From a bacterium (lineage in GTDB: Bacteria; ARS69): DNA of 15,192 nt. The notes beneath the pieces are model-generated. The model ran no database searches and was not told where the DNA came from. It saw only the letters and a list, made by a program, of their open reading frames with translations. The stretch spans positions 1 through 15,192 of the forward strand of contig JALGZR010000094.1 in the NCBI GenBank assembly GCA_025774805.1, given 5' to 3'. This document shows, piece after piece, positions 1 to 1,055 of the stretch; position 1 is the first letter of the stretch; every line of letters begins with the position of its first letter. The translations under genes were made by a program, and so were the position numbers.

Positions 1-1055
1 TCGAGCACCATCGCGCGCTCCGGACCGGGCGGCGCGAGCTCCACTCCCCGCCGGCCGAGCGCCTCGGCCTCCTCCAGGTTCACCGCGTTCTCGAAGCACC
101 ACCAGGCGAAGGAGTTGAGCCGGCTCGAATCGTCCTTCCAGCCCTCGGGCAGCAAGGTCCGCTTCAGATCGAGCGCCTTCTCCGGGTCCCTCTCCACGTG
201 GAGCGCGTACTCCACGCTGAGATCGGTGTGGGCGGAGGCGAGATCGGGGTCGTCGCTTCCGGCGAGGGCGTCGAGCGCCGGCCTCAGGTACGGCACCATC
301 ATCTCCGGCCGCTCCGCCTTCCGCCCGGCGTAACGCATCATCCGGACGGCGGTGGCCAGATCGAGCGGCTTCCGGTCTGCGCCCCGGAAGAGCGCGTCGG
401 CCCGCTCCTTCAACGTGTCGATCGTGTAGACGTCGTCCCGGAAGCCGGAGAACGTCACGTCGAAGAGCTGGAACGCGTAGTCCGAGCTCTCGTCGAGCTC
501 GTCCGCGCTCGCGTAGAGATCCACCGCCTCGGGGTACTCGCCCCGCGTCCCGTGGAATCGTGCGAGCTTCTCCGCGTCCGCGGCCGTCGGGCGCTTCCCG
601 TACCGCTCCCGCTTCTCCTCGATCGTGGTGGGATCGGCCATCGACGCCGCGAGCTGAGCCAGGAACATCTCCTTGCCGTACCCCATCCAGCGATCCATCG
701 TCGCGCCGGTCGCGCCGGCGAAGACGAACGTCGGGTAGCCCTGGATGCGGTACTGCTCCGCGAGCTCGACTCCCTCCCCGTCCTCCGCGTCCAGCAGGAG
801 AAGAACGACGTCCTCGAGCGCTCCCTTCACCTCCGAATCATCGTCCGCCGCCCGGGCGAACCTCTTGCACGCCGCTCACCACGTCGTGAAGAACTCGATC
901 AGGAGCGCCCGTTCCTGCTGGGAGGCCAGCTCCTTCGCCTCGGCGAACGTGCTCGGGCCCGAGCCGGCCGGAGCGCTTCCCGCCGTCACCAGAAGGACCA
1001 CGAGCACGGCGAGAGGAGCGATTCCGGGGCCGAACTCGGAGAGGAATCTCTGCAT
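1..1055 (-). CDS. Secreted thioredoxin-fold protein, putative selenoprotein with UxxC motif (3' end beyond window)
   Basis: The N-terminus (MQRFLSEFGPGIAP followed by a hydrophobic Leu/Val/Ala stretch to about residue 28) looks like a signal peptide, so the protein probably acts in the periplasm or at the membrane. The thioredoxin signature begins at LLIEFFTTW (51-59), then an in-frame TGA as codon 60 (876-878), then A-A-C63-K-R-F. The TGA thus replaces the first Cys of CxxC. The frame stays open for about 290 further codons to the window edge and includes the thioredoxin cis-proline segment YRIQGYPTFVF (Pro108) and a TPR-like helical region (KRPTAADAEKLARFHGTRGE onward). TGA ends other genes here, so recoding must be local; selenocysteine fits best. 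ATG 1055 is chosen because AAAGGA lies 6 nt upstream and the signal peptide follows. A second ATG at 1166 overlaps the GNAT stop but gives no signal peptide. Alternatives are a TGC-to-TGA sequencing error or a decayed gene. No Sec machinery is visible in this window. Confidence 0.8.
843..861 (-). promoter_or_regulatory. Candidate bacterial SECIS stem-loop downstream of the in-frame TGA
   Basis: On the minus strand GTTCGCC (861-855) pairs with GGCGGAC (849-843) over 7 bp with one G-U pair, closing the 5-nt loop CGGGC (854-850). The stem begins 15 nt and the loop 22 nt after the TGA (878-876). Bacterial SECIS elements are known to lie in the coding region just after UGA, with a short apical loop carrying G at position 1 or 2 and a UGA-to-loop distance of roughly 16-37 nt; this hairpin meets each of these. 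In G+C-rich DNA short stems arise by chance, so its value comes from its position next to a TGA at a redox Cys site. SelB binding is inferred. Confidence 0.6.

Follow-up and report, generated by a model that had tools for sequence, protein, structure and literature searches.

The in-frame TGA at positions 876-878 (minus strand) of the window, the 15,192-nt stretch of DNA analysed here, is with high confidence best explained as a selenocysteine (Sec) codon read by means of a SelB-bound SECIS element in a member of a multi-phylum selenoprotein family. That the codon encodes Sec, as the sequence-only reading had proposed, is well supported by homologues with Sec or Cys at this position, by the tRNA-Sec, selA and selB genes found elsewhere in this genome, by an intact downstream frame and by a conserved SECIS hairpin. 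The gene codes for a thioredoxin domain fused to a TPR superhelix, and its features are as follows.

1..1055, minus strand: Trx-TPR selenoprotein gene, the 5′ 351 of its 403 codons, with the remainder on contig C254, which belongs to the same genome and overlaps the window
963..1055, minus strand: putative N-terminal hydrophobic export signal, residues 1-31, from the sequence and alignment by inspection
633..950, minus strand: thioredoxin domain, about residues 36-141, with the cis-Pro segment GYPTF (Pro108), from Pfam, AlphaFold and fold comparison
876..878, minus strand: in-frame TGA, residue 60, read as Sec and opening the thioredoxin UxxC
867..869, minus strand: codon of Cys63, the presumed resolving Cys in UxxC, with no variation across the family alignment
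842..862, minus strand: bacterial SECIS hairpin of 8 pair positions and a 5-nt loop CGGGC, −11.1 kcal/mol, with 7 of the 8 pairs formed in the window copy
1..623, minus strand: TPR superhelix, residue 145 onward, with the conserved WWCFEN (Cys320 at 96-98), from the alignment, Pfam and models

The window is the entire contig C44 of a 5.1-Mb metagenome-assembled genome (MAG; 284 contigs, 96.3% complete). Translation of the minus-strand frame from the ATG at 1055 (MQRF...FFTTW-TGA-AACKRF...) confirmed that its single stop, the TGA at 876-878, falls where a thioredoxin has its nucleophilic Cys, and both the 59-residue fragment before it and the GYPTF segment after it are present as claimed. The frame stays open for 291 codons past the TGA, up to the window edge. 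Window bases 1-114 match the end of contig C254 exactly, and across the C44/C254 overlap the full gene has 403 codons, of which 343 are open downstream of the TGA and retain the invariant residues, and a TGA terminator of its own. The long open frame noted from the sequence thus extends beyond the window, and the coding past the TGA, where signs of decay had been suggested as a check, is intact. In line with the several TGA-ended neighbours noted at that stage, six of the ten other window genes terminate with TGA, and therefore the codon is not reassigned genome-wide.

The occurrence of TGA at this site is not due to chance, given that the same column holds TGA in at least 23 other copies. By tblastn over the fetched loci the codon was found at the identical column in the window copy and 22 further loci, and genome G076 contributes one more. 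Since the homologue search used peptide patterns with Cys at the Sec column, it was not biased toward TGA. The TGA copies are labelled as originating from Zixibacteria, Eisenbacteria, Krumholzibacteriota, Latescibacterota, Gemmatimonadetes and Acidobacteria MAGs and from a Caldisericaceae MAG, in which the frame breaks off about 55 codons past the TGA. Cys occupies the Sec column in six loci (L012, L015, L023, L026, L028 and L030), and a paralogue on contig C282 of the window's own genome has Ser (WSYSC). The proposed comparison of homologues at this column accordingly returned both residues, with TGA in no fewer than 23 others and Cys in several, and hardly any member has a catalytic residue other than Sec or Cys. 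In the tree, the window copy groups with a relative from the same genome family, G003 (99/98); at least three changes each are needed to explain the Sec and the Cys labels. The Trx-TPR selenoproteins are a family spread over several mostly uncultured phyla.

Several individual copies deserve a separate description. The Ser paralogue (G000:C282:6024-7211, minus strand, corresponding to L079:2516-3712) has an SxxC motif, as does E. coli CnoX, and clusters (99/98) with L028, a Cys copy from an Eisenbacteria MAG. On contig C293 of G076, a Sec copy with a SECIS (L132) and a Cys copy without one (L134) lie about 5 kb apart. In another relative from the window's genome family (L119, G004:C154:11273-12262), about 50 nt comprising the Sec codon and the SECIS are missing and the frame is changed; either the assembly went wrong at the hairpin or the segment has truly been lost.

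The hairpin that follows the TGA is a shared feature of the Sec copies. All of them have an 8-position helix with a 5-nt loop at nt 17-37 counted from the U of the UGA, so that the hairpin begins 13 nt after the UGA. First, the pairing is specific to this position: the Sec copies form on average 7.45 of the 8 pairs, whereas the other in-frame offsets average 3.2 (sd 0.5) and the best of them reaches 4.9, and 92.4% of the cells pair in the 23-sequence alignment, against 36-57% when it is slid. Next, the pairs covary, with a score of 0.386 versus 0.247 for shuffled alignments (0/500). Pair 24-30 is C-G in 17 copies and U-A in 6 and is broken in none; as both sides are third codon positions, its covariation is not explained by amino-acid selection, and the U-A copies are scattered over three or more parts of the tree. 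Finally, the Arg codon in the loop is CGU or CGG in 22 of 22 Sec copies, whereas elsewhere in these genes CGC is the commonest Arg CGN codon (197/369). This preference agrees with the G[G/U] rule of the model for bacterial SECIS elements, which in the 2026 review of prokaryotic selenoproteins (PMC13188914) specifies a loop of 3-9 nt, a stem of 4-16 bp, a G in the first two loop positions, a UGA-to-loop spacing of 16-37 nt and an energy of at most −7.5 kcal/mol. The window hairpin lies within all of these limits, with a 5-nt loop, 7 pairs, G at loop position 2, a spacing of 21 nt and −11.1 kcal/mol; the hairpins of seven other Sec copies are weaker than the energy limit. As probabilities, the pairing, covariation and codon counts are all weakened by the relatedness of the sequences.

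The Cys copies form only 3-4 of the 8 pairs, as in G076, where the TGA copy has 7 pairs and the Cys copy within 5 kb has 4. The exception is L012 (L012:2570-3739, Zixibacteria), which has TGC and retains six inner pairs and a loop CGUGA, and likely represents a recent Sec-to-Cys change with a relic SECIS. Folding of single sequences was less informative: the 54 nt from the UGA of the window copy fold no better than shuffles (z +1.1), the isolated window hairpin gives z −1.6, and the z-scores of single 54-nt segments did not pick out the SECIS among the TGA copies (mean z −0.8). The case rests on comparison.

The genome of the window also has most of the machinery for Sec insertion. A tRNA-Sec is found at C171:8216-8309 (72.3 bits), with ARAGORN in agreement and the anticodon TCA; the tRNA-Sec model is specific, as at the threshold used it matches only two of 14 control genomes, those of E. 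coli and M. jannaschii. The selB and selA genes are located on contigs C266 (383 bits) and C79 (536 bits), respectively. On the basis of established SelB biology, and with the tRNA, SelB and SelA genes observed here, SelB carrying Sec-tRNA(Sec) would bind the hairpin 13 nt past the UGA and deliver Sec at the UGA. The suggested search for the Sec genes was thus borne out for tRNA-Sec, selA and selB but not for selD, which was not found in the genome: the best match of the family model scored 20 bits, and the SelD of a close relative had no match. The likeliest reason is an assembly gap, in a MAG that is 96% complete and in 284 contigs.

Across the family, selD is over the cut-off in 27 of the 28 other family-bearing genomes, mostly with a TGA inside selD itself, and selB in 25 of the 29 genomes tested, the window's own included. 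The four below the selB cut-off are G068, with a fragment, and G066, G072 and G076, which were fetched for their Cys copies. Twenty-two of the genomes tested have a Sec copy: selB exceeds its cut-off in 21 of them, the remaining one having a fragment that matches profile positions 2-198, and selD is present in 21. A tRNA-Sec was not found in G072 or G076; the latter has a TGA copy, yet neither selB nor selD was found in it, and most simply it is another incomplete MAG.

Two further genes in the window's genome appear to use the same system. The mutually similar redoxin-domain genes at C261:36162-36521 and C262:26317-26673 (L130 and L131) both read LEFGANW-TGA-PICPLQAAA and have hairpins directly after the TGA, the 54-nt segments folding at about −19 and −22 kcal/mol. 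They are probably additional UxxC (UPIC) selenoprotein genes, which suggests that the Sec system of this genome serves several clients.

Judging from its sequence, the protein would be exported by means of an N-terminal signal, behind which come a thioredoxin domain and then a TPR superhelix. By inspection, the window copy has a hydrophobic N-terminal signal, as do the other members of the alignment, with a lipobox-like LAGC at the N-terminus of several relatives instead. In Pfam, Thioredoxin_7 (44 bits) and Thioredoxin (39 bits) match the window protein above their cut-offs and, together with Thioredoxin_2, span residues 36-130; the features that define thioredoxin-fold proteins, namely the fold itself, a [C/U]xxC motif and the cis-Pro, are all present. 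The AlphaFold model of residues 1-351 (mean pLDDT 91.8) has a low-confidence hydrophobic N-terminus, the thioredoxin domain to about residue 141 and then paired helices. The C-terminal part of about 260 residues, seen as TPR-like already from the sequence, is supported as such: TPR models of Pfam match up to 24 of 28 family members, and when this region of a relative was modelled by itself (pLDDT 95.8), it superposed on TPR superhelices with Z up to 15.9. Invariant in the 28-row alignment are U/C60-x-x-C63, with U or C at the catalytic position, the cis-Pro 108 and a third Cys in the TPR part, Cys320 of WWCFEN (window 96-98, minus strand). The two G076 copies, as read through in L132 and L134, have WWA instead of WWC.

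The closest solved sequences and folds to the thioredoxin domain are the DsbD C-terminal domain and the Bacteroides disulphide-isomerase 2KUC (E 1.9e-14; Z 13.9 over 109 residues for the latter), which have Cys rather than Sec and lack a TPR region. From these sequence features the protein would rather likely act outside the cytoplasm, reducing or isomerising disulfides by means of a selenol: Sec60 would attack a substrate disulfide, Cys63 would resolve the intermediate and the TPR part might dock a protein partner or substrate.

An alternative concerns the function only and leaves the decoding as proposed: the protein might be mainly a periplasmic chaperone of the chaperedoxin type, with the TPR part as a holdase and the thioredoxin domain in thiol protection, rather than a reductase. 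The top Foldseek matches are YbbN/CnoX (PDB 3QDN and 3QOU; 318 columns, E 2.5e-5 and 1.3e-4), in which TPR repeats likewise follow a thioredoxin domain, and the own-genome paralogue shares its SxxC with E. coli CnoX. However, CnoX acts in the cytoplasm together with GroEL (PMC8129009), while the protein described here has an export signal. E. coli CnoX is devoid of Sec, and the present family has in addition the conserved WWCFEN. The rigid superposition is poor (TM 0.24, rmsd 21.5), the two domains being arranged differently. That nearly every member retains Sec or Cys as the catalytic residue also favours redox catalysis, and a mainly chaperone role is thus rather unlikely. YbbN/CnoX may be viewed as the nearest in architecture, sharing the thioredoxin-TPR fusion and differing in the cytoplasmic location without an export signal, and would serve as an analogy and not as a family assignment. 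CnoX does not appear among the 50 matches listed by VIA-align for either model, though it may well lie beyond them. A selenium-dependent extracytoplasmic chaperedoxin, in which Sec would protect thiols or reshuffle disulfides while the TPR part holds clients, within a family that switches among Sec, Cys and Ser, is offered as a tentative idea.

As regards the decoding itself, a nonsense mutation or sequencing error might have broken a Cys-type thioredoxin gene, so that the TGA would be a true stop in a decaying gene. A single change from TGC or TGT to TGA would suffice, the assembly is a MAG and selD was not found, but no fewer than 23 further copies across a deep tree share the TGA, the 343 downstream codons are open with the invariant residues kept, and the SECIS hairpin is conserved under synonymous covariation. 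Sequencing error at 876-878 is very unlikely because the TGA recurs across many independent genomes, and this reading as a whole is highly improbable. Known Sec genes show competition between stopping and Sec insertion at the UGA, and the codon might thus be mainly a selenium-responsive switch that yields the 59-residue signal-peptide fragment at low and the full protein at high selenium; this is similarly improbable, as the fragment would stop before any functional domain is complete and Sec occupies the catalytic position. Reassignment of TGA to Trp, Gly or Cys in the lineage would account for the apparent read-through here and in the two redoxin-domain genes, but is practically ruled out by the TGA terminators of six of the ten other window genes and of the gene itself, by the presence of tRNA-Sec, selA and selB, and by the location of the read-through codons at redox UxxC sites followed by hairpins.

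The reading of the TGA as Sec places the protein beside several known selenoproteins. In table 1 of the review (PMC13188914), a UxxC thioredoxin (PF00085) and a UxxC thiol:disulfide interchange selenoprotein (PF13098) are catalogued; the thioredoxin fold and Sec as the first residue of UxxC are the same and both Pfams match 28 of 28 members, whereas the domain here would be exported and is fused to the TPR superhelix. NF041199, the Trx7/PDZ domain-containing (seleno)protein, likewise combines a Thioredoxin_7-type domain with an interaction domain, but has CxxU and PDZ where the present family has UxxC and TPR; it matches 7 of 28 members weakly (best E 1.1e-5). The C-terminal DsbD-like thioredoxin domain of the TsoB rhodanese/DsbD fusion-like selenoprotein (NF045694) aligns with that of the window protein, which scores 33 bits against a cut-off of 805 and in which no rhodanese part was found. 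The window protein stays below the cut-off of every NCBIfam model, and across the family there are only weak matches. A Trx-TPR selenoprotein does not appear in the available part of the review's table, nor do the words "TPR" and "tetratricopeptide" in its text (PMC13188914), and it is likewise absent from the new families in the accessible portion of the deep-Sep paper. In the main texts of open-access papers, neither a Trx-TPR selenoprotein nor "selenoprotein" together with "chaperedoxin" was found. Under the domain-plus-motif naming of the review, the protein could be called "thioredoxin, UxxC" (PMC13188914), and it may be a variant of this known kind, possibly with an earlier description elsewhere.

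The position of the gene beside that of a VIT/VWA protein had been called worth describing. VIT/VWA, DUF4136, sigma/anti-sigma and aconitase-like genes are found near the gene in G003 and G004, of the same genome family. As a functional partner of the whole family the VIT/VWA gene was rejected, being conserved only with these close relatives, and the link is most simply explained by local inheritance. In a crude clustering, no neighbour cluster was common to more than four loci apart from the gene itself. A plasmid search gave no match, and a search of viral contigs gave only distant thioredoxins.

The Trx-TPR selenoproteins add to the bacterial selenoproteome an architecture that was not found catalogued, mostly from uncultured phyla. 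Wherever such a gene occurs, standard annotation splits it, leaving a short fragment and an orphan. As one protein family offers natural Sec, Cys and Ser versions, even within one genome, and among them a Cys copy with the SECIS hairpin still in place, what Sec gains over Cys becomes directly testable within a single family.
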